IMG/VR virus record: IMGVR_UViG_3300002483_000015
Location: 26,554-55,362 of that record
From: a virus
Length of the DNA stretch: 28,809 bases
Direction: 5' to 3' (one strand)
The position numbers and the translations under genes are program-made. Of this stretch, positions 5,093 to 28,809 are shown in pieces. Numbering within the stretch: position 1 is the stretch's first letter; each line of letters starts with the position of its first letter. Under the pieces are notes generated by a model. That model was given only the letters and a program-made list of their open reading frames with translations, did not search any database and was not told where the DNA came from.

Positions 5093-5094
5093 GT

Positions 5095-14000: not shown

Positions 14001-17000
14001 CCTTGTAACGAGTAATAATGTGCAGAACAGTTTCAGGAATATAGCCTACATCTAAGCGTGTACCCGAATCTCTTTCATCATCAGTTAACCCACCAGTGTG
14101 CTTTGACGATACAGTAGCGTCACTACTCGCACCCTCCATTAAGCCCCAGTCTTTACTTCTTGTAACATTGAATAGTTTACTAAGTGGGATTCTATTCTTA
14201 TTATTGACTTTGATTATGACGGCGTTGTCTTTTACACCCCACTCACCTAGAGTTTTACCATCAGGTGCAAACATATGCCTACAATCAAAATTACTTTCGT
14301 CGTTATTAGCAGGCATTGTCATCGCAAACTCAACTGCCGCTGCAATAACTTCGTCTGTGAGTACACTTGTGAAATTGATTCTTGGACTTATTACATAGTC
14401 AACGGAACTTATGGCACTTCCAAGCCCCCCTGTACACCCATAGAAAACATGAGGACCGGCCTTGGCATTGTGAGTCCGACTGGTGTATGAAATAGTTATA
14501 CCTTTGTTAGCACCACCATCTGTTGTTAGTTGTAATAAACCTGACTCAGGGAATCCAAGATAGCCTAAGATGTCAGGATGAGACAGTGTACCACTTGTAT
14601 CATAAGGTGCACTGAAGACCATCGTGAGTGTTTCTCCTGTACCTGCACTGTCATGAGTCAAACTTACTGAGCCGTGAATACCAACTGCAGGTGAAGGATA
14701 ATTGTTCCAAAGGTTTCCTTTGTATTCTTTCTCTGTGCCACCAGTCTTTTCTCCACAGACCTCACCTTTACCAACCATATGCCTACCAATAGTAAATCCA
14801 CCTTGTGCTACATCACTATCATTAAAGTAAATTACAACTTCTTCGTCAAATGTAGGCGGGACCATTGTTAAGTCATTTCCAAACGGCTTTCCACATTCTT
14901 TGTACACCATCCTGATTGTATGATTATCACCTCTATGATCTTCCAATCTAATACCGTATAAACTACCCTTACCAATATTAGCAGGCTTCATCTGCTCTTC
15001 AGGAATGTAGCCGGTTTTGTTTGTAGAAGTGTAAATTGTACTACCAAGCATGGCGGTGGCAGCGTTAGATGCATTGCCGTATATTGCTTTGAATCTGTCG
15101 TCGCCATCTCGACCCATACCCCATTTTCCAGCATTAGGTGCCCAGCCCGGTATACCGGCTTGTGTTAATCCACCAAAGTTGATACGGGCTTGTGCGGATG
15201 TACCTGTTCTCAATCCATCAACTAATGTAGAAGACGGACTTTTAGTTTCAAAGGATTCGTTGATTACAGTGTTTGAATTTCTACCCGAAGCACCTTCACG
15301 GAATGTGTCAGTCTTTTGAGTCGAGCCTGCAACTGTCTCCGGCCCTAAACTTAAATTGTTTTCAAATTCATCTAGTGTTTCTTCAGGAGGAATATATTCT
15401 TTCAAAGTAGTTATAGGAGCAAATGGTCTACCGAAACGATTGATTGGCATAGGGGCAGGGTGCATGTTTTCTCCAGTCATTTCATCCGGCTGACACCAAT
15501 AGTTGCGGAATCTACCACCATGTCCGATTAAATATCTTGGTTGGTAAGGTGTCTGCGCACGACTGCTATCTAACCAAACGCAGAAATTACGACCTTCTGC
15601 ACCCGGAACAGTAGAGTGAATGACAATTGAAAATCCTTTTTCCCCATTAGAATCTAATACTACACGACCAAGATGAGCGCGAACATACCCCATGTGGCTT
15701 CCTTTGTCGTGACTAGAGAAGCCTTTCTTTACATCCCAAAACGGAGCAGGATCGTGAGTAGAGCCAGTGCTTTCACCTAAGTGCCTTTCTTTTTCTCCTC
15801 TTGCATAAGTTCTGCCATTTTTAGCACCGGCTTGGTTAATTAAACGAACAACTTCACGAGCGGCTGACTCTATGTTAGTGAAACCTTTGTCTATAGAAAT
15901 TTCACCAAAGTCAATTGTTAATCTTCTTACAAAGTCCATCTTTGTCCAGTGTTCTAAATTATTGAGCCTAGTTTCTTCGTGTCCACTTAAATCTAAAGCA
16001 CTGTTCCTTATACCCTTTAATGCAAGGAAAGCAGGTATAGCGCGGGTACCGTCAGGGGTATCAAAGAATGTAGAGGCTTCTCTTGAATCTTTATCGATTT
16101 GCTGATGTAACAATACTGCATCATCTGAGTTTATTACGGCATCGTTAGTTCTAGGCATGCCGCCATTTGTTGTATAGTTTGTACCCACATCGGGGCTGTG
16201 TGGTGACAATATAGTGCCGGTACTAGCGTTCCATGTGCTCTTGTGGGAATACGCCGCTTCGATAAACTGTGACTTAGTAGATGCTGTAAGGTACTTGCTT
16301 TGGCTTGGGAAGCCGGATGCTACATCTATCCAAGAACCTGAATTGTCATCATTGTACACAATTGCACCAGTAGTTCCACTTGGGGCTGCTCCGATCTTAG
16401 TGGCATCAGCACTACTCTGAACTTGCATCCATAAATCTTGGAATGCAATAAACTCACGGTCATGTGCAACATCATACAGCAAAACACGAGCATGCTCGCT
16501 ATCTGACTGATACGGGTCTAAATATGCAACAGTTGGTGCAAGTGTAGCAGACAGGCCTAGTGCTTCATAATTCAACTCAATTGTTTTGTTGACATGTTGC
16601 ACAAAATTCTTTGCTGTTTCCACACAAGTATTACCAATCAAAAAGTTCTCCAAAGGTGTACTGCTTCTTGGGTTGGCATTCATGGCACCTTGACCACCAT
16701 TGAAACCAGTCCAAACTTTACCTTCGTTTAGTGTGCCTCTGCTTTTACAGAATAAGCCTTCTATCGAATGAGGATTAGTGTAATGCATGTTCATCCAAAC
16801 AGTGTCACCGTCACGCAATCCACCCGGAGCATAAGGATAAGCCCAAGATTTGTTTAGGAATACCCCTTCCTTTTGTTCAGGATAAATTGTGCTAGGGCTA
16901 GCATTCATATCTACAAGTGTAACTTCATCGCCTTCAGATGGAGTAAAGCCGGAATCTCTTTGTGCTAGAGTAAACACAGACCCTGCCCTTGCTTCATAGT

Positions 17001-20000
17001 GTGCGTAGTTCAAAGTACCACTAGCATTTCTGTAAGCCAATCTATAGCGATAGCCGCTATATCCACTTACTCCCTGTACATTTTCAGGGAAAAGACTTCC
17101 ATCTTTTAAGTACAATATATTGAGTCCTGTATTTAGAGATTCAACTATACCTTTTGCTCTGCCACTTTGAATTCTGTCAAGGTGAGGATTGACACGAGGC
17201 CCTGCTCTGAACTCAACTGCACTGACATATTGCTTCATACCATAATCAACATTGCCACCTTGTGTCATTACATTGGAGCGGTCATAATAGAATGAGCGAC
17301 GACCTTCATATCCGGCACTTTTGAGGAGGGGGTTGTCTGCAATCGGACTGTAATTCATATCTTGGTAGCCCGGCCCCGGAGTAAGTTGTACACCAACTGC
17401 GAACTCTTTGACGAAGTTTTTACTCATTGCCCAGTTACCACCAGCGGTTGCTGGCGCTGCTGCTGTAATTGTGTTATTAGTTAGATGAGGCGTACCTGTG
17501 TAAAGCACCCATTCTCCACTTGGTAAAAACGCTCTACGATACCTTGCACTACCATCTATACCTGCAACTGCAGTAGGGCCAGCAGTAGAGATAGGGAATA
17601 TACTTGCATCCTCTACAGAAATTGTAGTTCCTGTAAATGGAGCAGTAATTTTAGTGCCTGTCCTATGAGTATTAGTTGCTATACTATACGAAAACGCACC
17701 GAATATCTCGGGATCTTGTGGTGTAATTTCCTCATGCCTTCTACCTACTGGGTTAGGTGCCCAGTTGCTAGCAGTTCTCGTTGCATCAACATGTATTTTC
17801 ATACTGTTGTCAGGTCCGGGAAATACACCTCTATCTATGTCTTGGAAAAAGAAATCTTCAAACAATGGTATTTCTACTAATGCGCGAGTACTTGCGTACT
17901 GTGTACCTAACTGGTAATCGTGCTGAACAGTGTCAAGAGTTTGGAACAATCTATCGTTGATAGTGGTACCATCATTGCAAACAGACTCTTCAAGGAATTT
18001 ATCATCAACATGTATATTGCCACCAACTATGTTTATGCTACCTACTCCATTAACCCAGTCTGTAAAGGTGTCCGCTTCACTACCGTCTGCAAGAATAAAC
18101 TTACCAGTTCCCATTTGACTACCAATTGGGAAATTGAATAGCGTACCTGTTTTAGATGTGTACTCTGCAGATGCAAAGCGGACTGCATCATTTACATCAG
18201 TTCTTGGTAATTCAAGATAGATTTTACCGGCTTTAGGGAAGCAATATGTACCCCAAGATGCTAAATCAGTTGCACGATTGTTAAGAGGCGTTACTGTAAT
18301 AGTACTGGCACTAGTATCAACAGCAGTACCTGATGTTACACAATCGCGCCTCGTACTCCAAGGCATTCTAGCAGTAGGGCTTGGGTTCCATGTTTCCTTT
18401 GTATTAATTGCACCCTGACCTGTGCCGCCAAGGGTAACGGTTACAACAGGTGCACCCGGCATTATCTCTTTGACTATATGTGAATCCGGGGCACCATCAC
18501 CCTTTGCGCTAACACTTGCACTTGCAATATCAGATACAAGGCCATAGGCAAGCAAATTGGAATTGCCACTTTCATCATCATCAAAGGACAATACTCTTCC
18601 CCTTGAAATCAAATATTCGATCGAAACTTCATTAGCGGTACCCTCTTCCGCACTTAATCTACAAAGTTGAGTAAATCTCCTTCTATCACTTGGTTGAATA
18701 GTCAATGTTATTTTGTTACCTACCGATTCATGTTCAATGATATCAAATATTTCATGAATAGCACTAGATTGATTTACGCTACCTATTCCTAACTCTACTG
18801 GGCTGCTATACAATTCTTCATTGTCATGTAGAAATGTTGCAGTTCCTCCGCCACCCGATACCCTTAGTGTTGTTTCAGTAACAGCGTGATTAATTGTACC
18901 AACGATTGTTCCATCGGCTCTGTAAATTATATCTCCATTCTTAAATGCGGTTCTTGCATCAGTTCCATCTACTGTCAATGCAGTAGTAGTGCTAGCAGCA
19001 TATCCCCCACTATTGTTAATGACTACACCAGTGCCTACGCGACTATTTAGAATTGAGAACTGCCTTATGGTGTCTTCTCTTTTATCTAAGTTCAATTCGT
19101 AGTCAACAGGGCCTATTATCAGTCTATTAAATTGAGACTCCTTTGACGATAAATTGGAATTAGATAAAGCAATTGCTTGAGGAGTTTTCATAGGCGGGTC
19201 AGTAGCCACTAATGGTAAATGATTTTGAGGACAAAGTGTGAAGTCCAACTTAGGCTCAGCAACTAGGCCTTCCTCTGTATCTCCTTCTAAATCACCTGAT
19301 TTGAATGGAAGGTTTTCAGACATATCTAATACGATTTTACCTCCCGGCGAGTAAATATCCAAATCCCCTGCATCTAACGCAGTATGAATAAGATCGAGAA
19401 TTGATGTGCTACCGCCATCTACTATTGTACTTACATCAGGTACAGTCTTAGTAACCATTAATGACGGGCCACGCATTTTTAACTTTACAATTGCACCAGT
19501 AGTGTCTATTGCTTGGAAACCGGAATCTGTATTAGCACTAAATGTAATTTTTTTGTCACTGTGATTTAATGTTGCAGTTATCGCAGGGTCAGTAGTGGCA
19601 GGTACACCATTAATCGATATATCCACCGCTCTTAACACAGCACCATTTTTACCAAAAGACTTGATACTTTGTAACTTAATCACTGTGGCTGTGCTTGTAA
19701 AAGATGAATCTATTCTTGAAACCGCTGCATGTGGAAAATTGGTAGGGTGATGACAAACGGCATTATAATGCAATTGTATAAACGGCGCGTAATTGTAAGT
19801 AGACAAAGAAGGTAAGTTTAGAATAGCAATTCTGCTTTCCGAAGAAGGAACTAAATGCCTCATAGTTTCAGCAGCATCGCTGTTGACTCTTTCACTTCCT
19901 ATAGATTTGAGGCTAAATAAATCCGAATCAAAATTGTCACCACCTATACCTATGATGCCTCTTTTGTCATCCGATATATCGCTCATGCCGTTTTCTATAA

Positions 20001-21615
20001 CTTGACTAACAAATGTTCTATCAGAAATTGCTTCTATTCTTAACGGCCCATAAGAATCGTAAACGGAAACTTTAGAATTTAAGGGAACGGTCCCCTTTAT
20101 GTCTGAGTACTGTGAAGAGTATGATGCTGAAATAACATCAGCAGAAGCATCTAATTTTTTATCAACAGATACATCAGATGCAGGTGGCAATAGTCCCATA
20201 AATGGATGGCTTTTGACATGATTCAAAGTATGCCTACCTGAATGCCCTATGTAAAAACCATCGCCGGGATTAGCAGAAGATGCTGAAAATTTATTGTAAG
20301 TATCAGAATCTATAGCCATACTCATAGAGAACATTATACCATGGTTTTCGTAAATGCTTTCATCTATGCAGACCTGACCTTGCCTATGAGAAAACTGTGT
20401 ACCGCTACCCTGTGGTTGGAAGTCGTTACCATTTCCTCCATCTACTATACAGTCTCCAGTTACGACAACGAATATACCTGCGTCGTGAGCCTGTAGTGCC
20501 CCTCTTCTGCCGTTTGATGTAGCACTAAAATCAAGATGAATGGACTCTACAGTAATTGTACCTGCACCACCATTTATTGCCATTAAACGCAAACGCTCAG
20601 GTGCTTTAGCAGTAGGCTTACCTGTCGTTGAACTGTAACCTAGAGGGTTGACAATTATGTTGTAGGGTACTTTAGGAATAGTAATATCGCTAGATGATGT
20701 TGCTGTGTACTTTTTTACGGTATAAGATCCATGCGAATTATATGGTGACTCGGTTGCAAAGTCTATGAATGTTTTTGTCGACGAACCTGACAATTCACTT
20801 GCTAAGGCTTTAGCAGCAGTCGCACCTATAGTAATTGTAGAATTAGCACTGGTTGATGCTGAAATCGATGGGGTAACGACCTGCGTAGTAATCGGCTCAA
20901 TTGGCTCTTCAAAGCGCCAAAGGCCAATGGTATCATCACTCTTTACCGGTGCAAAGAATGCCCTACCTGATTGCTTTACACCTTTAGACAGATGTATAGT
21001 TTCGATTGTGCCACGGTATTCTCCTCCTCTGCCACCAAGGTACATATTAGAAGGGTTGAGAACGATTTGTTGTGCCTCATCGAATTCCTTTGTCACTACT
21101 AAGTCACCGTTGATGTGCATTGATATGCGACGACCACTAAATGTAACAGTTACATTCAATAATTCTCTATGTCCATCATTTAAAGCAGTGGAATCGTTAA
21201 CAGCAGCATCGGTAGAAACATCAGAATTATGCAAATCTAAATTTGGTGTTGGGAAGCAAATCCCATCCCAATAAGCCAAATCGCCATCAGGCATGTGTAC
21301 GGGCCTTGCACTGCTAATAGAGCACACACTAGATGTACCTGCTGCTACATTTTCTAAATTGATTTCAAATGTTGCAGGTGCAGGACTAGAAGGCGAACCT
21401 ACAATTAACCTCATGACATTTTCATATTCATAGACTACACCCCCGCAATCAGGTACTATCCAAGTTTCTAATGTGAATGAGCGCAAAACATTAGGTAGGG
21501 CCTTGTACCCCTCTTCGCTTTTACCATGCACTACATTCAAATTAGGAGGAACTAACACACCGTCGGTAATACCGTTGAAAGACAAAGCAAATCCGGGATC
21601 TATTACTATGCTCAT
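5095..21615 (-). CDS. Giant modular virion protein, about 5,500 residues
   Basis: One uninterrupted frame of about 16.5 kb encodes a protein of roughly 0.6 MDa, rich in Gly, Ser, Thr, Asn and aromatics, with mostly beta character. The N-terminus (about 1-245) reads as a LamG/concanavalin-like domain: ALSFNGITDGV, FTLETWIVP, NGDLVVTKEF, MYLGGRGGEYRGTIETI, GLWRFEEP. Further along are a GGYA module (about 858-943), recurring modules with an FP turn (near 1325, 1495, 3160 and 4565), recurring Ala-rich helix plus GN modules (near 1915, 2420, 3095 and 4205), a GSGY module (about 3222-3297), a His-rich stretch (about 4735-4785) and an Arg/Trp-rich segment (about 4975-5050). It lies between a paralogous structural pair and a hub-like gene, so a peripheral tail or adhesin role is likely. 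The ATG at 21615 is chosen because GGGG (21623-21626) sits seven bases upstream; a GTG at 21621 would overlap the previous stop. No protease or catalytic motif was recognised. Confidence 0.85.
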   Translation of the reverse strand: MSIVIDPGFALSFNGITDGVLVPPNLNVVHGKSEEGYKALPNVLRSFTLETWIVPDCGGVVYEYENVMRLIVGSPSSPAPATFEINLENVAAGTSSVCSISSARPVHMPDGDLAYWDGICFPTPNLDLHNSDVSTDAAVNDSTALNDGHRELLNVTVTFSGRRISMHINGDLVVTKEFDEAQQIVLNPSNMYLGGRGGEYRGTIETIHLSKGVKQSGRAFFAPVKSDDTIGLWRFEEPIEPITTQVVTPSISASTSANSTITIGATAAKALASELSGSSTKTFIDFATESPYNSHGSYTVKKYTATSSSDITIPKVPYNIIVNPLGYSSTTGKPTAKAPERLRLMAINGGAGTITVESIHLDFSATSNGRRGALQAHDAGIFVVVTGDCIVDGGNGNDFQPQGSGTQFSHRQGQVCIDESIYENHGIMFSMSMAIDSDTYNKFSASSANPGDGFYIGHSGRHTLNHVKSHPFMGLLPPASDVSVDKKLDASADVISASYSSQYSDIKGTVPLNSKVSVYDSYGPLRIEAISDRTFVSQVIENGMSDISDDKRGIIGIGGDNFDSDLFSLKSIGSERVNSDAAETMRHLVPSSESRIAILNLPSLSTYNYAPFIQLHYNAVCHHPTNFPHAAVSRIDSSFTSTATVIKLQSIKSFGKNGAVLRAVDISINGVPATTDPAITATLNHSDKKITFSANTDSGFQAIDTTGAIVKLKMRGPSLMVTKTVPDVSTIVDGGSTSILDLIHTALDAGDLDIYSPGGKIVLDMSENLPFKSGDLEGDTEEGLVAEPKLDFTLCPQNHLPLVATDPPMKTPQAIALSNSNLSSKESQFNRLIIGPVDYELNLDKREDTIRQFSILNSRVGTGVVINNSGGYAASTTTALTVDGTDARTAFKNGDIIYRADGTIVGTINHAVTETTLRVSGGGGTATFLHDNEELYSSPVELGIGSVNQSSAIHEIFDIIEHESVGNKITLTIQPSDRRRFTQLCRLSAEEGTANEVSIEYLISRGRVLSFDDDESGNSNLLAYGLVSDIASASVSAKGDGAPDSHIVKEIMPGAPVVTVTLGGTGQGAINTKETWNPSPTARMPWSTRRDCVTSGTAVDTSASTITVTPLNNRATDLASWGTYCFPKAGKIYLELPRTDVNDAVRFASAEYTSKTGTLFNFPIGSQMGTGKFILADGSEADTFTDWVNGVGSINIVGGNIHVDDKFLEESVCNDGTTINDRLFQTLDTVQHDYQLGTQYASTRALVEIPLFEDFFFQDIDRGVFPGPDNSMKIHVDATRTASNWAPNPVGRRHEEITPQDPEIFGAFSYSIATNTHRTGTKITAPFTGTTISVEDASIFPISTAGPTAVAGIDGSARYRRAFLPSGEWVLYTGTPHLTNNTITAAAPATAGGNWAMSKNFVKEFAVGVQLTPGPGYQDMNYSPIADNPLLKSAGYEGRRSFYYDRSNVMTQGGNVDYGMKQYVSAVEFRAGPRVNPHLDRIQSGRAKGIVESLNTGLNILYLKDGSLFPENVQGVSGYSGYRYRLAYRNASGTLNYAHYEARAGSVFTLAQRDSGFTPSEGDEVTLVDMNASPSTIYPEQKEGVFLNKSWAYPYAPGGLRDGDTVWMNMHYTNPHSIEGLFCKSRGTLNEGKVWTGFNGGQGAMNANPRSSTPLENFLIGNTCVETAKNFVQHVNKTIELNYEALGLSATLAPTVAYLDPYQSDSEHARVLLYDVAHDREFIAFQDLWMQVQSSADATKIGAAPSGTTGAIVYNDDNSGSWIDVASGFPSQSKYLTASTKSQFIEAAYSHKSTWNASTGTILSPHSPDVGTNYTTNGGMPRTNDAVINSDDAVLLHQQIDKDSREASTFFDTPDGTRAIPAFLALKGIRNSALDLSGHEETRLNNLEHWTKMDFVRRLTIDFGEISIDKGFTNIESAAREVVRLINQAGAKNGRTYARGEKERHLGESTGSTHDPAPFWDVKKGFSSHDKGSHMGYVRAHLGRVVLDSNGEKGFSIVIHSTVPGAEGRNFCVWLDSSRAQTPYQPRYLIGHGGRFRNYWCQPDEMTGENMHPAPMPINRFGRPFAPITTLKEYIPPEETLDEFENNLSLGPETVAGSTQKTDTFREGASGRNSNTVINESFETKSPSSTLVDGLRTGTSAQARINFGGLTQAGIPGWAPNAGKWGMGRDGDDRFKAIYGNASNAATAMLGSTIYTSTNKTGYIPEEQMKPANIGKGSLYGIRLEDHRGDNHTIRMVYKECGKPFGNDLTMVPPTFDEEVVIYFNDSDVAQGGFTIGRHMVGKGEVCGEKTGGTEKEYKGNLWNNYPSPAVGIHGSVSLTHDSAGTGETLTMVFSAPYDTSGTLSHPDILGYLGFPESGLLQLTTDGGANKGITISYTSRTHNAKAGPHVFYGCTGGLGSAISSVDYVISPRINFTSVLTDEVIAAAVEFAMTMPANNDESNFDCRHMFAPDGKTLGEWGVKDNAVIIKVNNKNRIPLSKLFNVTRSKDWGLMEGASSDATVSSKHTGGLTDDERDSGTRLDVGYIPETVLHIITRYKGTNANTATPILVDSQNNMVDVSTWQRNLRGDNYTSVAGDHIIPKVDSPMILKTTDDGATITTASNTYLYSICVPGSDDTYSWGERFTIWWGSEEYAEVTSKVGADVETKLSYGATTGVSANFASYCHDSDDEVLMRNGDVKNGMKTDGIRRAGSKMSSPFLYFRGGRDSPDHWVPLYFGGGFSGVVMDINDGTENDYGEFYTHPYASGPTGSCGLQNVGEIAGSYALLDTNAMLAMFPGTPYLDNHKGKNNPPLFNQDGILTFDMAKGANNHATGTTYTDGTNTVSTNIPSPIILRFAHPHARYSSSGNTDDQTVYMVFGPGQAFPHNSAAFEPQGSNIVTTGNGYSAVPIYITGGSASDESFLPNQLANGDDSVSGFNRTLAASAHLPRTSFFQKNRLSGFNYDMNWEPTKGFPSVSVHTSSGDSFEQTYDKAFYYEGSLFSVPHFTYPPTAHPFNTVFTDLAGNSLQTTGTYAATKKAFAIWHMDGGYHPGGHFLDNHVNINPKHPIENGRLATGGTNKHNVSAFRPCGLLAEAYLSKYGGSPDNQVSDENVVLIDATRVQNAEELGAVISASINTFPGKDPLKAIGGTFLPSMQNAHRQDRYGWVEVAVNQYTAQSGSTAASVRVTSAATTFPDYGWLRFSDGNTAGYAPYISQSVSAPNTTFTLGKSPALSSPSVISILDPGSGGYSTAAGLATSGGSGTGLTVEITAVTGSGQIDPSGPSGGIVITNPGSGYESGEDIIVIQGGASNDARISIDDCAANSNVTNPENMRDVAVDNSFKAYVWTKAGTHRHNNDSSVTARDHMCQVHYNGLIDAVDRTKPIGAVGWAGEAYSYLNSYTGTQIGSGVYPAGLGAWHPFLGFNPYGAAETCLASSAPVGTGDTATATFSDYCVNGLSSRHLIAITNESELPLIAKADRDGILCSGDWLMAKENGNILHAGTVQWDTAKVHNKSRYVAYANAGPRVEAQMHSGFTRPFNNTNYPNTGSAPSDAQWHRTIQSGDMVQANPCLYPTGDLFWDESVVKGSNFHENFGTNGVECIGNSGLKDYLNPAAATTAMPHPGLFGYYSKRSAARNFSAEHIVWKRMDGGSLTMPAANARGLGAIPWVNRKQSDDSYLLEGEKVLGNVRFSFETTNSAMFPVIQAQELSHPQLAEQHPIRIQNALMIPNEEMQFKSMMVVDDTGQEHRLEGGSPLGTVIMDFRHVSDREIQGLSPALAGTGVSPNMKIRLPNPDEIPGNIIVRPGFDRIQAYQHETFGSGGLQHPAQPIQHITDMFDNTYAGPRLWPTWENNGWEHLSQDGTDISILKNEHRLDFPASTLEGWQDHTGNRPLSTSYEPHDRSLYFHVTKMGVSSTHKYGVEETPYQNHTVNTIVAGGTLASADWTDTTEQSGGRYFLRVYDPETGKGVIASYTGISSDTFTGVVFSPDFEQFVTDNQASLFIVPSYYMPAGSTRIFASRRLRDHSEYSGASPDMKITGWFEMYDKLPASTGNFANPSIPYQYLAGASSPKMTPMPIPRMGHHYVTPTMALMPGHYAHPAYQRIYDLNQSCRTSNNDFTINSLIGTNEATRTSVVAAATGTITAADGDAAHGLTAGQKITITSTDGKIVDYFVSDTNDGGVAHLSAVTAGATLKSTGSITASLTSGATGISVGFNLASGTQNAYLVLLKAAIEHANGHNGRVTVSAVPAEANGNQSITVTQRDHGEDGNLTMTENLATVSVSGFSGAANITTSFESGRDPYIYFSGPTAAFSPSDIHGGGFTLLTETKIKYEGYGIAASVGDAGTKNAAGGHELVLEAAGTYTLNDHFPDPMEVGAYQIVIQPNLFKQQLKGFHANGPAADVPDGSVVELTGQQVNTVIAIEQDISTNGAHTLILAEAIMADVRGCEVIINEVILDIEPDSGSHFTNMPTLGLYNPLGVQETSSPSLTRRSMPYRPGMFSSATPGYTITIPWWGILHKDGATASGANKFKHLEWHKPDNYYEFCRMSYGCVGAQLTIAGYPTSFMDIYEVHRRNRSLNPTCVVLSTNSGGSTITVDNNDLFPVEPYYGEQLEYTKNGITYTATYGNRTGTLAHATLGVSTIFESVSGSTEFWANIAANTVLKLTRPYKTYASDTVFLDSQTSIMARLFPQKQNKYDNSLVDGSGDTNSLHLPDAYLCLWHPNLGRPFTWYSDTATGGTRNFYDKTGVADTPVDKKPYNHMPEFFETIHYHDFNYVASKGPFGFAMKWVAPPHDHDNNSGTALNHDGSIYTAAQIDALVDGSGTLNHQGGTISSTKYNFAGFWPGGSHGGGAVSRLETYASALIGWGGETHGMDCGGFDDNTGVRTRTYAELTSASAYARNYCFGYRFGIRQAYNRPRYANYVRGYLEVANANALHGYYHGPFVQQDNKTNGWDYVGADSGDGAPTDQTFTASYIGILERLTQISALLNQDQIGRQVRYSDGRRMSESFGCAVRTIRNASTVRREYPGDSAGKDIADLAEAHRYYMVDWWGNTRGEDVRRFPVRGFGIRPSWDPEDAYADTNVTHRPAAHSLFAGDGNDRYSGNANTANNDASNMGTADWFNPASAMRVGDRGDGRGVRWPTVFNESMLMDVSETHEATGLVLSHSTAEPAFGQGLVRPSNLTLQAGEIDRGISARLDLADEDGLLKPSSSVGEGVETVTADTRLVDPVARDDIRMGLDVDTISELNDGASREYVIMSTEAASLHTDTEVGQRTNLRGAMTGGSRTLGNFDLTALNFSGNPVAGITRFSNAHAYWSLGGTYVMEWSKHSGVLDVKGWGQDGVPLSSNPYQDANHNPTIQNINFTDSKIEFLYRPAQVLDSKHVQFFRPAPVMKTSADQVGSNFYRATAGGKYGLFTSDVPGALTGTPSLPPYAPVYSITPGSSLTVPTSQGPKIEGVDVTGYDKTDIRSPVARIVMSENTLEHFRADASRKSPDDKEGDFAVQPRHSQTLHPKGSDGDASYNTGDHSGD
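11735..11950 (-). other. GSGY-type beta repeat unit inside the giant protein
   Basis: About 72 residues: GGYSTAAGLATSGGSGTGL, VEITAVTGSG, IVITNPGSGYESGEDIIVIQ. This pattern (GGSGTG, V-x-V-T, then NxGSGYxxGDxxxV) is familiar from structural proteins of marine tailed phages such as cyanophages. A single unit is visible here. Confidence 0.55.
18790..19045 (-). repeat. GGYA beta module, copy in the giant protein
   Basis: About 85 residues: GTGVVINNSGGYAASTTT, then VDGTDARTAF, GDIIYRADGTIVGTI and DNEELYS. It aligns by eye with the module at 3480-3750 in the hub-like gene and more loosely with one at 22970-23155. Probably a mobile structural domain shared among tail proteins. Confidence 0.65.
20890..21615 (-). 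other. LamG/concanavalin-like domain at the N-terminus of the giant protein
   Basis: About 240 residues follow the jelly-roll order: ALSFNG at the start, FTLETWIVP (the typical aromatic strand), VTVTFSGRRISMHINGDLV, MYLGGRGGEYRGTIETIHLSKGV, and a final GLWRFEEP. LamG domains commonly bind glycans or proteins. Its place at the extreme N-terminus may anchor the protein or bind host surface sugars. Assigned by pattern only. Confidence 0.6.
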
Positions 21616-21617
21616 TT

Positions 21618-23672
21618 TCACACCCCTATAACAAAGTCAGACGCTAATAACCTCAAATTAAATGCGTAGTAATTGTTGCCAGCATCATAGCGTACATGAA
21701 ACTTTTCAGGAATAATCCTCATGCCTGCTTCATTACCATGTGGTTCTGAATACAAAGTGATAAATCCGTCAACTATTAATGACCCAATAAACTCACCTAA
21801 CAAACCAACAGCGTCAACAACATCATCAACTACACCTAAACCTATAGATTCAAGCCAAGACTCCTCTGCATCGTCAGGTCTATCTCCTCCTAATTCTGAT
21901 GGTAAGGTAGCAGGTGTCATTTTACGAGATGCCGGTATTGTATTGTTCACGGAACCCTTGTCAGCAAGACTTTGTTGTCCAAAAGTTAAGAAGAAATTCC
22001 TAGCAGTAGGTGTCACTGCGTCACTTTGTATAAGGCTGTCATATGGTATCTGAATACCTCTAATTAAATCTCTATCCTTGTTAGCGTTAGATATAATTCC
22101 CATCAAATCTTGTACTTTATCGCCAGCAGATTTACCTTTATTGCTAACACCCGAAGTATGGTCATTGGTACCATCCATAAAGTACTCAAATCTCGCTAAT
22201 TCTGTTCCTTGAGTAACACCACCTATGTAAGAATTTATTCTATTACTTTCTTTAATTTTATTGCAAGGAGTAATTGGTCTAGCCAAATAACCATTGTTGT
22301 AAACTCTACTAAGAGAACTACTAAGGGGTGTAGTTTGATTGAGAGGAAGGTCTTTTTGTGTAACTAACAACATCGGTCCATTCCTAGTTACATCAAAAGT
22401 ACCTGCTAAAGTAGTAGCACTACCTGCGTCTGAAGAAGTAAGTGCACCATAAAACATTGCACTATCTGTTAATTTAAGAGCATACTCTACAATTGCTGCT
22501 AATGCATTTGCAGGACTATTGTTGTAAGCATCTGCAGCATAAGCAGTGATTTGCCCTATTGGTACATTGACGACTACAGGTGGTCCGGTAAGACAACTTG
22601 TCAAATTACCATTCCTATCGAATCTTTGTTCATGAGAACTTTTCTGTGTGACACTAGGGTATTGCCCAGTTAATGGTCCACTTTGAAATGTACTATGCGC
22701 GGGTGTATCTGGATCAAAATTCAAATAAATCCACGAACTACTCGTCTTCGATGCTTTCCAAAAATTAGGTTTAAATCTCAACCTTGTGTTTCTAAAAGTC
22801 TCTTCTAAAGGGGGGACACCATATGCACTTATGAAATAAAAATGTTCTTTAGTTATTGGAATTTCAACTCTATCTAATTCAATGGTTGCTATCTTTTCAG
22901 CATCTGAATCCATATCTCCGTCTATAATACCCCCAACTAAACCTGTTGGGCCCCAAAGTGAACTTCGAGGATAAGATAAATCAGTTCCGTCTGCTAAATC
23001 TACCTGTATACCTTCAGATATAGTAATCGTGTCACTAACAATATTAGTCACAGTTCCAATATATGTGCCATCATCTTTAGTTAATCTTTGCCCAATAAAC
23101 ATAGCACTTGCGTCATCAACTTCAATGCTAGTCACCCCAGCACTATATGTACCACTGCTAGGGTGGTCTACATCTGCACCTGTGTCTTCTACATGCTTTC
23201 CTATGTATGCAGTAATACTAGGGTCGTATGTGTCGCCGAAAGCATCTATTGGTGTATTCTTTATGTCTACTACCGTTTTGTCATCAGTAATCGCAATATC
23301 ATCAATATCATTTCTAAGTCTAGTTCTTAACCAATATTCATTCGACATAGGCACTATGTCATCAATATGGAGCAAAGGTGTTGAATTGATTTTAGTAGGC
23401 ATGTTAGATGCAAAATTGATACCAATTGCCCCACCTTGGTTAATGTTAATTTTACTATCTGATTCAAAAGTAACATCATCATCAACCAATATGCCACCTA
23501 TCTCTATACCAATCGTAGGTATATTGCCGTCGACTGCAAATCTTTTCAATATATTATCAGGGGTAGGAAAAGCACTAGCATTACGATCTAGCGTTATGTC
23601 TAACGATTGCGCCTCTAAAGGTATTTCAAATAAATTAGTTGGTCCTACAATCAACCTAATTGGTAACGCCAT
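21618..23672 (-). CDS. Distal-tail/baseplate-like structural protein (paralogue of the 851-residue protein)
   Basis: The 684 residues start LPIRLIVG and continue with IDVxLDR-like strands, GIEIGGILVDDD (55-66) and a Lys/Ile-rich strand. The C-terminal region (about 512-684) holds GKSAGDKVQDLMGIISNANK, GIQIPYDSLI, ARNFFLTFG and a closing FHVRYDAGNNYYAFNLRLLASDF. All of these match the neighbouring 851-residue protein in order, so the two are paralogues with different central inserts. Inserts here include a divergent beta module (about 173-234) and an Ala-rich helix plus LLVTQKDLPL (about 387-443). A hydrophobic helical stretch (about 607-637, GLGVVDDVVDAVGLLGEFIG onward) is absent from the paralogue. 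The ATG at 23672 has GAGG seven bases upstream (23680-23683). Position after the tape-measure candidate suggests a distal tail or baseplate protein; the exact role is inferred. Confidence 0.75.
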   Translation of the reverse strand: MALPIRLIVGPTNLFEIPLEAQSLDITLDRNASAFPTPDNILKRFAVDGNIPTIGIEIGGILVDDDVTFESDSKININQGGAIGINFASNMPTKINSTPLLHIDDIVPMSNEYWLRTRLRNDIDDIAITDDKTVVDIKNTPIDAFGDTYDPSITAYIGKHVEDTGADVDHPSSGTYSAGVTSIEVDDASAMFIGQRLTKDDGTYIGTVTNIVSDTITISEGIQVDLADGTDLSYPRSSLWGPTGLVGGIIDGDMDSDAEKIATIELDRVEIPITKEHFYFISAYGVPPLEETFRNTRLRFKPNFWKASKTSSSWIYLNFDPDTPAHSTFQSGPLTGQYPSVTQKSSHEQRFDRNGNLTSCLTGPPVVVNVPIGQITAYAADAYNNSPANALAAIVEYALKLTDSAMFYGALTSSDAGSATTLAGTFDVTRNGPMLLVTQKDLPLNQTTPLSSSLSRVYNNGYLARPITPCNKIKESNRINSYIGGVTQGTELARFEYFMDGTNDHTSGVSNKGKSAGDKVQDLMGIISNANKDRDLIRGIQIPYDSLIQSDAVTPTARNFFLTFGQQSLADKGSVNNTIPASRKMTPATLPSELGGDRPDDAEESWLESIGLGVVDDVVDAVGLLGEFIGSLIVDGFITLYSEPHGNEAGMRIIPEKFHVRYDAGNNYYAFNLRLLASDFVIGV
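22970..23155 (-). repeat. Divergent copy of the beta module in the 684-residue protein
   Basis: About 60 residues: SGTYSAGVTSIEVDDASAMF, then GQRLTKDDGTYIGTV and LADGTDLSY. It keeps the xxSIxVDxxxAxxxF, GxxLxxxDGTxIGTV and final acidic pattern but has lost the INN-GGYA opening. The paralogue at 23682-26237 has no clear equivalent, so the module is an insertion. Confidence 0.45.
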
Positions 23673-23681
23673 CTTTAAACC

Positions 23682-26237
23682 TCACAAAATAATATCTGCC
23701 GCTATAAATTTCAAAGCAAATTCATAGGCTTTCATTTCGGCATCTCTATGAATATGAAAATCTGTAACTATGCCATGTATTCCGTTCCTACGACTGTTAT
23801 TCAAAGCAGTGTTGTAAGATTCGGAGGCATGTGTTGTATTACTTGAAGACATTTTAGATACGGTGCTGACATTACTGTTAGTAACAAAGAAGTTTCTTTG
23901 TGCAACTACTTCGTCTAATTCGTGGTCGCCTTTGGTTACCATGGTGTTGTAAGGTATTTGTATAGCAGTAATGTAGTCTCCACTTTCTACCTCATCGTAC
24001 GCCACTTGTTGAGTAAAAGTAGAGACGATGCCTTGAATGAATTCACCCATTCCTGAAGTTTCTGCAGTGTGAAAGTTGTTACTATTAGCAAGTATGCCCA
24101 GCAAATCTTGTGCCTTATCACCAGCAGACTTTACTTTTTTGCCCGCTTTACCACCAGTAAAACCTTGTATGTTAGGTAGATTGCCCACAGAAAAATTGTG
24201 ATTTATTTGGCTATTGACTGTACCTAAAGAAGTAGCGTATACTTGGGTTATTTCTAATTTAGTTTCGTAATCGTTGGAGCCAACTTTTATGGCTGTAGTA
24301 AACACTTTGTTTAGAGTTTTGTCACCTGCAGCATTAACCGCCCTTTCACTAATTTCTAATGTAGATGTTAGTAGTTGAGACAACTGGTAAGTGATATATT
24401 CGTCTGCCCTTTTACCCGGTTCGGGTATACCCGAGCGAGTGGGTATTTGTGACAGACCTTCAGTCCTAGAACTAGTATCTTGGTAAGCAGGGTAATTTAC
24501 ATAAGGTAAAGTTTGCCCAAATGCACTGATTGTAGCAAAAGCATTCTCTATAGGTAGTACTACAACTGGGTTACCCATAAGAGGTGAAACATTTTCTTCT
24601 CCCAAATTTAAAGACGGGGCCAAATAAACTTCATCTGATTGCGCGATTGTAGAACCATTGCCACCTTCAACAACACAAGTTATACTTGATTCAGCCACAG
24701 CCGTTACTTTTAGCAACGCATCACCATACGAATTTCCTCTAAACCCACCAGTTCCGTCTGTAGGATCTTTAAGTTTAATATGATAATCTGCACTACTATT
24801 AGTTAATTCAATCCAATCGCGAGCATCACCACCTGAAACATTTACCGTCACTGTACCAAGGGCATTACTACTACTTCCAGCAGCAACAACGATGTCAGTC
24901 ATTCGTCTAACTTTATTTACATACCCGTAAGGTTCGTTTTTAGAAGCAACTCTAGTTGCATCAAATACCACTTTAACATTTGAAGGGTAATCTTGGTAAC
25001 TAAAATTACGATAAGGATGATTAGCAAAACCTGCAATATCATATATTGGTATATTATACTTTGAAGACAAATAGCCCTCAACTTGCTGTTGCTCATCAGC
25101 ACTTAATATTCTATTATAAATTATAATTTCATAAATGTGCCCTACAAATTTGTATTGACTTCCGTCTGTTGAGCCTGCACCAATAAAGGTAGTAGCGGCA
25201 TCTGAGTTGTTGTATGTGCCACTTCCATTACCCTTATGTATTCCGTTAAGAAATTGAAACTTGGAACTTCCAGTATTCGTAACCCTTTGTGAAATAATAT
25301 TCGGCACATTTGGAGAAACCGTTCCATTGCCGCTTTCTATAGTAGTTGTGCCTGAATCAAAGACATCAAACTTAACTTCATTATCTGATCCCGTCATGTT
25401 ATAATATAAGGCATAGCCTTCATTAGTTTCCCTACTAGTAATTATAGATTGATGTGCGCCATTATCACTAGTGGTCGTAGCAACAGCAAAAATAGTCATA
25501 TTCGTAGGATTTAAGTTAGCGTTATACGAAACATCAAATCTCGATGAGCCATCGAATTCAACATAGGGGCGACCATTAATACCGTGCTGTTTGTACTTTG
25601 GTGTGCCGTTTTTATTCGCAACTAATCCGTTTACTGAGTCGGTCCAACTGTCAACAGTAGCCTCATGTTGTATTGTACTAGATGATAAATTCGATGCGGT
25701 CAAAGCACTAGCATCAAACCTTGCACTAAGGCCTGAAGTTACGGGTAAAGGAGAAGCACTGGTACTTTTCCTTTGGTCTACCCAATAAGCAACTGGTAAG
25801 GTAATATGCTTATTGTGCCATTTTTCCCAATTCGATTTGCCTTTTAATCTCGATTTAAATGGATCTGTTATCTTGCTTCCTGCACCCATGCTCTTGTTGC
25901 TCGCGCTTCTTTTGTTACCTTTACCACCGGAATTAGCCTCGGCATAAGCCGCCGCTGCATCTTCATCAAATAGCGTTTGGGTATGGTGAAAATCAATTGT
26001 TGCCTTTGCTTTTGAAGAAACTTCTTGACCTTCGTCATCAGTAAATACTCCTTGGATTTCAAAGCCTACCATTGCTTGATTTAAATCAATAGACATTTTT
26101 TTAGCATCAAATAGCGATATACCAAATGTAGACTGTTCGCGTTCAATTACCATGTCTATAGAAGTAGCATCTAAGGAGATAGTCTCGCCATTTTCTTGTA
26201 CTAGGCGAATAGGTACTCTCTCCCCTGCTTCTACCAA
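23682..26237 (-). CDS. Distal-tail/baseplate-like structural protein with inserted LamG domain
   Basis: The 851 residues begin VPIRLVQENGETISLDATSI, followed by KKMSIDLNQAMVGFEIQGVF (46-65) and SSKAKATIDF. An N-terminal region (1-95) and a C-terminal region (about 700-851: KSAGDKAQDLLGILANSNN, AIQIPYNTMV, QRNFFVT, DFHIHRDAEMKAYEFALKF) are shared with the 684-residue protein. Between them sits a LamG/concanavalin-like domain (about 165-397). It has VTSGLSARFDAS, GRPYVEFDGSS, MTIFAVATT and the characteristic ending EIIIYNRILSADEQQQVEGYLSSKYN. The start is a TTG at 26237: GGAG (26247-26250) precedes it by nine bases, and the first in-frame ATG would remove 28 conserved residues. Probably structural and glycan- or surface-binding. 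Confidence 0.75.
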   Translation of the reverse strand: MVEAGERVPIRLVQENGETISLDATSIDMVIEREQSTFGISLFDAKKMSIDLNQAMVGFEIQGVFTDDEGQEVSSKAKATIDFHHTQTLFDEDAAAAYAEANSGGKGNKRSASNKSMGAGSKITDPFKSRLKGKSNWEKWHNKHITLPVAYWVDQRKSTSASPLPVTSGLSARFDASALTASNLSSSTIQHEATVDSWTDSVNGLVANKNGTPKYKQHGINGRPYVEFDGSSRFDVSYNANLNPTNMTIFAVATTTSDNGAHQSIITSRETNEGYALYYNMTGSDNEVKFDVFDSGTTTIESGNGTVSPNVPNIISQRVTNTGSSKFQFLNGIHKGNGSGTYNNSDAATTFIGAGSTDGSQYKFVGHIYEIIIYNRILSADEQQQVEGYLSSKYNIPIYDIAGFANHPYRNFSYQDYPSNVKVVFDATRVASKNEPYGYVNKVRRMTDIVVAAGSSSNALGTVTVNVSGGDARDWIELTNSSADYHIKLKDPTDGTGGFRGNSYGDALLKVTAVAESSITCVVEGGNGSTIAQSDEVYLAPSLNLGEENVSPLMGNPVVVLPIENAFATISAFGQTLPYVNYPAYQDTSSRTEGLSQIPTRSGIPEPGKRADEYITYQLSQLLTSTLEISERAVNAAGDKTLNKVFTTAIKVGSNDYETKLEITQVYATSLGTVNSQINHNFSVGNLPNIQGFTGGKAGKKVKSAGDKAQDLLGILANSNNFHTAETSGMGEFIQGIVSTFTQQVAYDEVESGDYITAIQIPYNTMVTKGDHELDEVVAQRNFFVTNSNVSTVSKMSSSNTTHASESYNTALNNSRRNGIHGIVTDFHIHRDAEMKAYEFALKFIAADIIL
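25045..25745 (-). other. LamG/concanavalin-like domain inserted in the 851-residue protein
   Basis: About 233 residues with the classic order: GLSARFDAS, a Trp strand (VDSWTDSVNG), GRPYVEFDGSSRFDV, NMTIFAVATT, GYALYYN, KFQFLNG, FVGHIYEIIIYNR, LSADEQQQVEGYLSSKYN. The final strand and helix are diagnostic of LamG domains in phage and secreted proteins. The paralogue lacks it, so it is an insertion into a tail protein backbone. Confidence 0.75.
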
Positions 26238-26239
26238 AC

Positions 26240-26659
26240 TTAACCACTCCTACTAAATCCACTTTGGTTAAGTGGGCCACCTATTTTAGAACGCAGTTCC
26301 TTTTGAACCATAGCACTGATTTCTTTAGCCAATGCCTTTTTGTCACTTCTATCGGTAACACCACTCACATCTATTTTAAGATTAATTGTAATATTATTTT
26401 GTGACTCCTGTGGCGCTGCACCACCTATTGGTTTTCTTTCTACAGAAGGATTAGTAAGTTGACTAAAGCCTTCTGTTTTGCTAGTTTGCCTTAATGAATC
26501 TCTAAGGTCATTACTGTGAGATTTGGTCATAGCCATTGACTTAGTAAATTTGTCCATTTGTTCTTGCAAAGACCTCATATTTTTTTGCGCCTCTTCGGTA
26601 TAATCTTTGAAGTTCTCCATGGCATCCACAGATCTTGGGTCTATATTACCGTCTACCAT
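26240..26659 (-). CDS. Very short tape-measure-like protein (putative)
   Basis: The 139-residue protein has a charged helical, coiled-coil-like first half (about 11-60, with MENFKDYTEEAQKNMRSLQE), a Ser/Pro linker, a strand NITINLKIDVSGVTD (89-103) and a closing helix (KKALAKEISAMVQKELRSKI). The strand plus amphipathic helix plus Gly tail is how many phage tape-measure proteins end. The gene is also where a tape measure is expected, just after the tail-chaperone pair. Tape measures are usually several hundred to over a thousand residues, so this would be exceptionally short. I chose the second of two adjacent ATGs (26659), which has GAGG (26667-26670) seven bases upstream and shares one base with the preceding stop. 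It may instead be a chaperone or connector. Confidence 0.6.
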   Translation of the reverse strand: MVDGNIDPRSVDAMENFKDYTEEAQKNMRSLQEQMDKFTKSMAMTKSHSNDLRDSLRQTSKTEGFSQLTNPSVERKPIGGAAPQESQNNITINLKIDVSGVTDRSDKKALAKEISAMVQKELRSKIGGPLNQSGFSRSG

Positions 26660-26928
26660 CATATCCCCTCTAGTGGTGGCACAAAGTCATACCCCAAGTA
26701 AACTGCGTTTGCAGAAGCCTCTGAATCATCATTAGAAGCCTGTGCCCAATACAAAAGTTGCTTGGCATCTTCAATGTTCAATCCCCTCACTTCGTTCAAC
26801 CCCATATTATAGTGTGTCATCAAAAGGTACTCCATCCCTTCTCGTTGGTAGCGAAGTCGGTCAATAACGGGTCTCCCGTTGATGAAATGTTTAATTTTGC
26901 CGACTTCGACTCCCGAAAAAGTAACCAT
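26659..26928 (-). CDS. Second tail assembly chaperone-like protein, overlapping the first
   Basis: The 89-residue protein is largely helical after residue 20 (GMEYLLMTHYNMGLNEVRG, then NIEDAKQLLYWAQ), ending in an acidic/aromatic tail. It overlaps the preceding 120-residue gene by 109 bases in the frame reached by a minus-one shift, the same geometry as the phage lambda G/T pair. Here, however, it has its own ATG at 26928 with a full GAGGTGAT (26932-26939), so separate initiation is more likely. It sits between a tube-like gene and the tape-measure candidate. Function is inferred from position, size and geometry. Confidence 0.6.
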   Translation of the reverse strand: MVTFSGVEVGKIKHFINGRPVIDRLRYQREGMEYLLMTHYNMGLNEVRGLNIEDAKQLLYWAQASNDDSEASANAVYLGYDFVPPLEGI

Positions 26929-27182
26929 CCCATCACCTCGTTAGGTTCGGGAAGCAATGCTGCTAATGCTGCACCCTCGGATGGAGATATGTGTTCCATA
27001 TCAAATTCTGAATCATATACTAACCAATGAGTAAATGCATGTCGCCAATAGGATGAAAAATCTAAACTGCCATCAGATAATAACGGCGCTACTGCTTGGA
27101 CATCAAAAAAAGTCAATTGTTTTACTTTAACTTCTATTTCTTTGCCATCTATTTCGATTTTATTCTTCTTCTCCTGCGACAT
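26820..27182 (-). CDS. Tail assembly chaperone-like protein
   Basis: The 120 residues open with a short charged beta hairpin (KIEIDGKEIEVKVKQLTFFD), followed by helices (VQAVAPLL, SYWRHAFTHWLVYD, SEGAALAALLPE). This layout is usual for small phage tail assembly chaperones that act with the tape measure. The start overlaps the end of the acidic gene by 23 bases, and the 3' third overlaps the next gene by 109 bases. The ribosome site is weak (a GTGAG), unlike its neighbours, which fits translational coupling to the gene before it. No named family is claimed. Confidence 0.55.
   Translation of the reverse strand: MSQEKKNKIEIDGKEIEVKVKQLTFFDVQAVAPLLSDGSLDFSSYWRHAFTHWLVYDSEFDMEHISPSEGAALAALLPEPNEVMGWLLFRESKSAKLNISSTGDPLLTDFATNEKGWSTF
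26932..26939 (-). promoter_or_regulatory. Full archaeal-type Shine-Dalgarno site inside the first chaperone-like gene
   Basis: GAGGTGAT on the minus strand is complementary to the usual 3' end of archaeal 16S rRNA. Its GAGG part lies seven bases before the ATG at 26928, the same spacing as most genes in this block. It lies within the coding region of the 120-residue gene, where it encodes part of NEVMGW. Confidence 0.75.
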
Positions 27183-27369
27183 ACTTACTCACTGTGTCCT
27201 CGGATGCAGCCGAATCGGGGGCATCCTGTGAAGCAAGATGAGCGAACGGATCGTCGCTGGCCCTCCCTGCTTCAGGGTCGAAGAGGTATTCTCCTCCCTC
27301 TTCTTCTTCGTCTTCTATAACATCAATTTCAATACGAGGATGAAGAGGCTTCCAAAACTTCATCGGCAT
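27160..27369 (-). CDS. Small acidic protein of unknown function
   Basis: The 69 residues have a short N-terminal segment with Trp and Pro (MKFWKPLHPRIEIDVI), then a run of acidic residues (EDEEEEGGEYLFDPEAG) and a disordered, Ala/Ser/Asp-rich remainder ending GEEE. It fills the space between the tube-like and chaperone-like genes exactly, with a nine-base gap before it and a 23-base overlap after it. GAGTTGAT, one base off the block's consensus, precedes the ATG. It may help tail assembly or be part of the chaperone set, but nothing identifies it. Confidence 0.65.
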   Translation of the reverse strand: MPMKFWKPLHPRIEIDVIEDEEEEGGEYLFDPEAGRASDDPFAHLASQDAPDSAASEDTVSKYVAGEEE

Positions 27370-27378
27370 ATTATCAAC

Positions 27379-28803
27379 TCAACAATGGTATAGGGTATCT
27401 TGACTGATTACTTTGACATTTCTTGGCTCCAGCAAAATTTTGGAGTGCAATAGTCCCATTTCATCAGGTACTGGAATAGGGACCTCAGTAATAACATAAT
27501 CGTCTATTAGTATTCTAAGTGATTGGGCATTTGCTTGGGTGCCTCCGCTAAGAACGGGCTTGGTAAAGTGAAGATGAATAAGATTATCAGCGGAGCCGAC
27601 TGTTCCACTAGTTTCTAAATGACTGCGCAAACGATGTAATAGCGTAGCATCAGTGAGAACTACATCTATTTCCATTGTAAACTCTTCACGCCCTTCACGA
27701 ATAATAGAAGCATTTCTTGTACCGCCATATGGTACTTGTTTAGTAGAAAGGTTGTCTGCATCCACTGTTTCAGCAACAGGGTTGCTCTGTATAGTGTGAA
27801 ACAATTCAACACCCGTCTTACCTCTTAATTCAAACGAACTAACAAATCCAAGACTAGAGCCAAACGCTTCGACGCTACCGTTGTAAAACATAAACGGCTT
27901 TTCAGAGCCACTTGCTATACCGGAAGCCTTCCTTGATGCGTCATCTGTTGCAGTGTTTTGGAACATGCGGTGTGCAATATATCGATCTCCTTTGTTATTA
28001 GTTTCTAATCGACCAGTATCGGTGTAAGTTGAAAGGGCATCAAATAGACATCTATATCTCAATTCAGCATCTACAGAAGATGACAATTCCCATTCTACTA
28101 CTTTGCAACCTCTGAAAACGCGAGTCAACTGTTTGCTGTCGTTAGCACTACCCGGAGCATTAGTGCTTTGTTCAGTACTATAAGAGCCGACATCTCTATT
28201 GCGAATACTATGCTCCATACAGAAAGAAGGAATGGTATCGCTTGAAAACAATAAGCGTCTCACTGGATTTGTAATATCTTTAGTGGTAGCAATGCTTGGA
28301 CCTGATGAATCATACTTTCTTAGAAGTACATCATCTGCTGAACTAGTTCCGTCACCACTATGCTCAAATTGCCAAGGGTCATCTACGAATATCCTATGTC
28401 CACTGCTCAAGGGCTCTATAGCAACTATGCGTCTACACTCACTTGTTTCAGTCCACTCAAAGTGATAGTTGTCACCAGCCAAAGAACTGCCGCTGCTACT
28501 TCCGGGCCAAAAATCAGTGCTACCTTGATTAGGTGCCTTGTATGTAACTGTTGGAACTATAGTAGTGTCGTGTATTAAAATGTAATCTCCAACCGCTGCA
28601 TTAACTGTTCCACTACTAGCATGAAAATTTAAATTATCTAAATCTATGAAAGTCTGACCGGGGGCCACAGTAAATGTCAGACTACCCTTTGCAGCAGTAT
28701 TAGTAGGTGCTGAACCACAAGCACCGGCATCTACAACTTCTCTACCAAGACTATAATATAGCCAGCGAGGATTGTGCAAAGGCATTTCAAGTGTACCTCC
28801 CAT
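27379..28803 (-). CDS. Tail tube-like (major tail) protein
   Basis: The 474 residues are beta-rich and carry the run of features seen in phage tail tube proteins. These are a VGDYILIHD strand (71-79), RRIVAIE followed by IFVDDPWQFEHSGDG (128-142), IPSFCMEHSIRNRD (181-194) and QLTRVFRGCKVVEWELSSSVD (215-235). Then come KPFMFYNGSVEAFG, a FVSSFELRGKTG strand and a C-terminal set of strands including HLHFTK, SLRILIDDYVITEVPIPVP and HSKILLEPRN. It stands first in the visible part of the tail operon, before the chaperone-like pair, as expected. The frame is still open at the window edge (two more codons upstream of the ATG at 28803), so the true start may lie outside. Recognition is by pattern. Confidence 0.75.
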   Translation of the reverse strand: MGGTLEMPLHNPRWLYYSLGREVVDAGACGSAPTNTAAKGSLTFTVAPGQTFIDLDNLNFHASSGTVNAAVGDYILIHDTTIVPTVTYKAPNQGSTDFWPGSSSGSSLAGDNYHFEWTETSECRRIVAIEPLSSGHRIFVDDPWQFEHSGDGTSSADDVLLRKYDSSGPSIATTKDITNPVRRLLFSSDTIPSFCMEHSIRNRDVGSYSTEQSTNAPGSANDSKQLTRVFRGCKVVEWELSSSVDAELRYRCLFDALSTYTDTGRLETNNKGDRYIAHRMFQNTATDDASRKASGIASGSEKPFMFYNGSVEAFGSSLGFVSSFELRGKTGVELFHTIQSNPVAETVDADNLSTKQVPYGGTRNASIIREGREEFTMEIDVVLTDATLLHRLRSHLETSGTVGSADNLIHLHFTKPVLSGGTQANAQSLRILIDDYVITEVPIPVPDEMGLLHSKILLEPRNVKVISQDTLYHC

Positions 28804-28809
28804 ATGGTG

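Follow-up and report, generated by a model that had tools for sequence, protein, structure and literature searches.

The tail genes of a virus in an IMG/VR record raise the question of how small a tape-measure protein (TMP) can be, and of what then becomes of the tail. The gene at the tape-measure position of this virus encodes only 140 residues, and a preliminary description of the locus proposed two alternatives: either the virus has a very short tail beneath a huge adhesin, or its tail length is set in another way. The DNA analysed here, referred to as the window, comprises 28,809 nt and corresponds to positions 26,554–55,362 (the final 28.8 kb) of IMGVR_UViG_3300002483_000015, a 55,362-base IMG/VR record that is itself a fragment. 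The gene content fits that of the magroviruses, which are tailed viruses with Poseidoniales (Marine Group II archaea) as hosts, because the window encodes a chaperonin (126–1622; phrog_5725, E 1.1e-47) and a Phage_tube_2 tail tube protein, and because an SU10-type major capsid protein and a prohead protease are present in a near relative (G001). Magroviruses have been reported to occur widely in the surface waters of the ocean (PMC10160649). In the ICTV profile of the Aoguangviridae, a GroEL chaperonin is listed together with a helical, non-contractile tail, the latter deduced from genes (PMC10768690).

The small gene and its neighbours

The tail genes described here all lie on the minus strand. 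The tail tube gene (27379..28809; Phage_tube_2, E 4.2e-08) is cut at its N-terminus by the end of the record and encodes 671 residues in L003/G001; tube proteins of about 640–750 residues are found in these viruses, roughly twice the 337 residues of the presumed HVTV-1 tube protein gp128, and may carry extra domains. Between the tube gene and the chaperone lies a small acidic ORF of 69 residues (27160..27369), followed by two overlapping ORFs that are read as a tail assembly chaperone pair. The first (26820..27182; gpG-like, 120 residues) is assigned by position only; it has no Pfam match, and its best PHROGs match, to a family without known function, has an E-value of 0.068. The second (26659..26928; gpT-like, 89 residues) is positioned as in HVTV-1 gp129/130 and aligns weakly, at 18% identity, with the second frame of the HVTV-1 chaperone. 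No canonical −1 slippery heptamer was seen by eye in the overlap (26820–26928) in the window. The two ORFs overlap in the −1 frame; the second possesses an ATG of its own, preceded by a GAGGTG stretch, and its separate translation is possible.

The small gene itself, hereafter the mini-TMP gene, occupies 26240..26662 (140 codons and a stop); the start at 26659, which had given 139 residues, corresponds to the downstream ATG of a tandem pair. The gene is confirmed as real rather than a chance ORF, because homologues were found in 17 viral contigs in an initial search and in 37 contigs in a profile search. The tiny gene that had been noticed at the tape-measure position is thus both genuine and conserved. 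Its pairwise dN/dS values against close relatives are 0.032–0.051 in the three of five pairs with a computable dS, the other two being saturated, and the gene is under purifying selection. The flanks are conserved in the 35 of the 37 profile-search contigs that entered the neighbourhood comparison (two were left out), some of which are cut at the end of the locus and some of which carry an additional ORF of 64–94 residues ahead of the mini-TMP gene. In the loci that reach it, the gene is located between the chaperone-like genes, so assigned by position, and the distal-tail genes, and its product measures 136–163 residues among near relatives.

The predicted layout of the mini-TMP consists of a helix (residues 9–61), a variable linker, a C-terminal TMP module (about residues 91–126), and a conserved GG..QSGFSRSG tail. 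In the AlphaFold2 monomer, a low-confidence model (mean pLDDT 63), the first helix spans about 53 residues. The strand–helix pattern that had been likened to the ends of tape measures is borne out in its helical part, which the model places at residues 105–127, whereas the strand is left unassigned in the same low-confidence model. No hydrophobic segment was detected in any of 55 mini-TMPs by a simple hydropathy window, which is not a transmembrane predictor.

Downstream of the mini-TMP gene lie two putative distal-tail ring genes. The first (23682..26237; 851 residues) is Dit-like and contains a laminin-G-like stretch (E 8.7e-06, just under the Pfam cut-off); the second (21618..23672; 684 residues) is its Dit-like paralogue, which we read as a duplicated distal-tail ring. 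The second ring protein also contains a single hydrophobic stretch (judged by eye to lie close to the C-terminus) that is not counted in the 645-residue G001 homologue. These are followed by the giant adhesin (5095..21621; 5508 residues) and by a putative tail hub (3416..5098; 560 residues), which has no Pfam match and resembles HVTV-1 gp133 by eye only. The adhesin is of similar size with either TMP form, namely 5508 residues in the window, 5307 in the mini-type record G014, and 5545 in the long-TMP record G020. Because the long-TMP relative matches the others in adhesin size, a giant adhesin is no mark of the short tape in these three records. A podovirus-type short tail, built without tube, chaperone, or TMP genes, does not match this locus, which has a tube gene and a TMP homologue.

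Homology with long tape-measure proteins

In relatives whose tube protein is about 37–42% identical, the slot of the mini-TMP gene holds a protein of 535–610 residues with 7–11 hydrophobic segments (20 of 21 loci; examples are L127/G020, L121, L125, and L129), and these proteins are, as judged from sequence, classical TMPs. One contig of this kind, L226 (PAUP01000059.1), carries a tail module with a 571-residue long-type TMP, and is filed in GTDB under a Cytophagaceae MAG; it is apparently a viral contig that was misbinned. The gene at L189:10078–11430 encodes a third type of TMP, a protein of 450 residues that has tryptophan-rich repeats and the same C-terminal module and in which the scan detected no hydrophobic segments.

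The C-terminal module connects the mini and long forms. When the mini profile (13 rows) was aligned with a profile of four long TMPs by hhalign, columns 91–126 matched columns 515–550 with a probability of 97.9 and an E-value of 4e-13, and in a single comparison the window mini-TMP was identical to the L129 protein at 24 of 33 positions (E 3e-12). The long TMPs with this C-terminus (558–566 residues) occupy the same genomic slot in relatives. They themselves match TMPs of haloviruses (probability 96.4, E 1.3e-9) and PHROG TMP families, the best match being 1.4e-11 for one of four members, while phrog_10093 was matched by all four (best 2.4e-07). Compared directly with the haloviral TMPs, the mini profile gave no significant match (hhalign probability 0.2, E 0.34), and its link to them therefore runs via the long magroviral TMPs.

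The homology is limited to the last 35 or so residues; between the N-terminal helix of the mini-TMP and the long proteins, no significant similarity was seen. Missing from the mini form is the entire middle of the long TMP, about 420 residues, which includes the hydrophobic segments and an EGGIV...GEAGPEAV motif. The mini-TMP has roughly one quarter of the residues of its sister-group counterpart. Searches with mini proteins were correspondingly weak: the best Pfam match of the single mini-TMP sequence had an E-value of 0.0085 and was not a TMP family, and the best solved-structure match of the mini profile had an E-value of 1.5. A PHROGs scan with 13 single mini proteins gave weak matches to three TMP families (E 0.0031, the best of the scan, 0.027, and 0.4, from one, one, and two of the 13 members) and to a minor tail protein family (E 0.0076), beside families of unknown function. 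In an annotated phage collection, tblastn with the mini-TMP returned only two ssRNA-phage records (E 1), and the proteins neighbouring the mini-TMP found no magrovirus match; no member of the PhageMin_Tail family was found in the 55-kb record of the window.

The absence of significant similarity outside the C-terminal 35 residues, together with the weak single-sequence Pfam and PHROGs scans, would also agree with an unrelated small protein that has gained a TMP C-terminus and is not itself a TMP. We consider this highly improbable, as the gene holds the same slot between chaperone-like and distal-tail genes and no other TMP candidate was found in the genomes. By position and C-terminal homology, the 140-residue ORF is a TMP in the sense of descent, and the tape-measure assignment, which had been a guess from position, is now backed by a module shared with the long TMPs of the same locus.

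Two tape-measure forms and the search for another ruler

Relatives were collected by their tube protein: the full-length G001 tube protein as query gave 66 contigs, and the tube alignment gave 80 of 123 relatives. The 87 loci compared consist of 79 of those 80 (L108 was left out) and eight further contigs from the G001 tube search; the mini-type L126, with a 159-residue TMP, is not among them. All 87 are different contigs, some of them near-copies of one another. The end of the TMP is reached in 76 of these tube-anchored contigs, of which 55 carry the mini form (136–163 residues) and 21 the long form (450–610 residues). The 11 contigs without a TMP match end 0–2740 bases past the tube, before the end of the TMP as placed in relatives, and five of them end within an ORF that has 2–10 hydrophobic segments at the TMP position, that is, the long type.

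In a tree of 67 tube sequences, 49 from mini and 18 from long loci, the split between the two forms corresponds to a single change (SH-aLRT 100). The tree, which is a quick one without bootstrap, represents 67 of the 76 TMP-bearing loci, the dropped tubes being partial (<500 residues) or identical to one used, and the program flags L189, whose long branch adjoins the mini clade. With the tube tree unrooted, the long form is probably the ancestral one, because haloviral TMPs share the C-terminal 72 columns of the long form, including a stretch that is missing from the mini form. The mini lengths fall into two groups, 136–141 and 153–163 residues, with five changes between the groups on the tube tree. 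These groups differ by about 20 residues, located C-terminal to the helix that is predicted in the 140-residue form, and the size of this difference is suggestive of one tube ring, as 22.6–28.6 helical residues correspond to each ring in RcGTA and HFTV1.

If the mini-TMP were only the retained distal end of a TMP, serving as a plug for tail initiation, another protein could act as the ruler and the tail could be of ordinary length. In this respect it is relevant that the C-terminal module corresponds to the part described as docking into the baseplate in HFTV1 (PMC12494034), and that a large, hydrophilic, helix-predicted protein of 1307 residues (G001:79345–83268) is encoded between the capsid and connector genes. 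The length of this protein ranges from 1307 to 1474 residues in close relatives while their TMP stays at 139–140 residues; a profile search placed its homologues upstream of the tube in only eight of the 87 loci, each closely related to the window, and a single-sequence search gave no homologue in either G014 or G020. Elsewhere among the mini loci, proteins of 565–926 residues occupy this place or none was found, and many loci extend only a little past the connector. The 1307-residue protein is therefore rejected as an alternative ruler, being too variable in length and not general. As a separate observation, some of the mini loci encode a hydrophilic, helix-predicted protein of 565–1474 residues immediately upstream of the connector, with an N-terminus such as MGDVLVK or MSRILVR.

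A second, conventional tape measure elsewhere in the genome, which the preliminary description had named as the refuting finding, did not appear: across 11 mini-type records (the 55-kb record of the window and ten of 90–109 kb), a long-TMP profile matched only the mini gene. In G014 the mini gene was matched twice, once in each of the overlapping ends. This record (103,328 bases) is consistent with a complete genome, since its ends overlap by 645 bases at 96%; in the long-TMP record G020, the ends overlap by 123 bases at 100%. Scans of the best non-overlapping ORFs of at least 60 residues in G001 and G014 found no ORF of at least 135 residues with two or more hydrophobic segments. In G014 the only ORFs with two or more such segments had 77–88 residues, and in G001 the segments were counted for ORFs of at least 135 residues. 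No other hydrophobic TMP-like ORF is thus present in either genome, and we judge a plug accompanied by a separate ruler to be improbable.

The same genome scans brought up an N-terminal motif like MxPxDxAWxxLK in ORF clusters of G001 (L058, L060, L063), G014 (L217, L218), and G020 (L220, L221). The shorter pattern AWxx[LA]K, which was chosen after being seen, occurs within the first 45 residues of 10, 9, and 5 ORFs of these records, respectively, versus about 0.2, 0.6, and 0.9 expected from the remaining protein, and in none of the 51 ORFs of the window's own record; it is possibly a targeting or packaging tag.

The ring genes differ between the two forms. Of the loci that extend to the adhesin, each of the 51 mini ones has two ring genes between the TMP gene and the adhesin, and each of the 19 long ones has a single ring gene, of 384–431 residues. 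Homology links all three ring families (E 1e-31 to 1.6e-35). A model of the single-copy ring protein of a relative (pLDDT 53.8) had no Foldseek match at E <= 0.001. Among the 50 VIA-align rows listed, the chains were mostly those of baseplate, tube, and Hcp proteins, with a best Z of 7.8 (5.3 Å over 136 residues), and a Z below 8 is a level common without kinship and may mean only a common arrangement. These tube-like hints, and the occurrence of the second ring gene in every mini locus and in no long one (51/51 vs 0/19), would suit a tail of fixed length in which the duplicated ring proteins (851 and 684 residues), rather than the tube, make up the greater part and the mini-TMP is a plug through the stack. 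Mini genomes nevertheless retain an intact, conserved tube gene as well as the chaperone-like ORFs. The association amounts to one evolutionary split, so that the tie between ring doubling and the short tape is not proven and the two changes may be unrelated. We regard a ring stack as unlikely, though it has more in its favour than a separate ruler, and it overlaps with the short-ruler explanation and may hold beside it.

Predicted tail length and comparison with known systems

The reading that we favour, and hold to be quite probable, is that the ORF is a TMP stripped of almost all of its ruler, and that the tail is very short. The first of the two alternatives originally proposed is thereby preferred, with the length itself taken from calibrations in other viruses. 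The HVTV-1 tail has been given as 73 ± 5 nm (PMC4284463) and its annotated TMP, gp131, has 480 residues, a ratio that yields about 21 nm for 140 residues. In the reported TP901-1 deletion mutants, the tail length extrapolates to zero at 127 residues, with about 810 residues for 118 nm (PMC5099701), which yields about 2 nm for 140 residues and about 5 nm for 163 residues. In HFTV1 a TMP helix of residues 2–316 goes with 11 tube rings (PMC12494034), and in RcGTA a 113-residue TMP helix goes with five rings (PMC7296036), as these sources describe them; by these ratios, the predicted 53-residue mini helix would span about two rings. From the genes, through which alone this tail is known, we infer a length of about 2–21 nm, most likely two or three tube rings.

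In the mechanism proposed, an N-terminal helix of some 53 residues is retained together with the C-terminal module, which would dock into the baseplate as in HFTV1. The mini-TMP would oligomerize in the tail channel, with the chaperone pair loading the short helix, and would nucleate tube rings on the two distal rings. The tube would stop or be capped after a few rings, about two for the 136–141-residue forms and about three for the 153–163-residue forms if the extra residues lengthen the helix. Such a virion would look like that of a podovirus and be built of siphovirus parts. Against this reading stands the finding that, in TP901-1, the first hydrophobic region of the TMP is required for infectivity (the second being dispensable), as the mini form has none; the authors of that work consider a chaperone-binding role of the hydrophobic regions possible and a membrane role less likely (PMC5099701). 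Central hydrophobic segments, although common in TMPs, may be taken as non-defining by analogy with the HFTV1 TMP, in which residues 2–316 are described as a helical coiled coil (PMC12494034).

A wider proposal, which we put forward tentatively and at slightly less than even confidence, is that this siphovirus lineage has become functionally short-tailed, with the whole ruler deleted, both anchors kept, and the distal ring gene doubled, so as to form a natural zero-length ruler. If true, a route from long to short tails would be traceable without exchange of the tail module, in viruses of abundant marine archaea. The TP901-1 mutants predicted a zero tail at about 127 residues (PMC5099701), and here a natural family lies at 136–163 residues beside a sister at 450–610. 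Two questions become testable, namely what the smallest working ruler is and how short tails evolve from long ones, and the missing hydrophobic segments bear on whether their role is in genome delivery or in chaperone binding only. The TMP family is known, and its extreme reduction is new to us, two main magrovirus genome papers lying outside the comparison. No short magrovirus TMP was named in the titles and abstract openings found by a literature search, and an earlier report is possible.

The closest counterparts are the long magroviral TMPs, which share with the mini form the gene position, a homologous C-terminal module, and homologous tube, distal-ring, and adhesin neighbours, but have 450–610 residues and one distal-ring gene downstream instead of two. 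HVTV-1 gp131 (Druskaviridae) likewise follows a frameshifted chaperone pair in the same gene order and is linked via the long magroviral TMPs; unlike the mini form, to which it has no direct significant match, it has 480 residues and serves a tail reported at 73 nm. The mini-TMP is the smallest TMP met in this analysis, the next smallest in print among the papers compared being that of RcGTA, of about 216 residues (PMC7296036). The latter protein, g11, is also small, with an N-terminal helix, strands and loops, and a C-terminal helix, and belongs to a short tail of five tube discs, but its N-terminal helix alone has 113 residues, and the likeness is by description only (PMC7296036). HFTV1 gp40, with 341 residues, 11 tube rings, and a 56 nm tail, is again compared by description only; it is an archaeal siphovirus TMP, the C-terminus of which forms strands or helices at the baseplate (PMC12494034).
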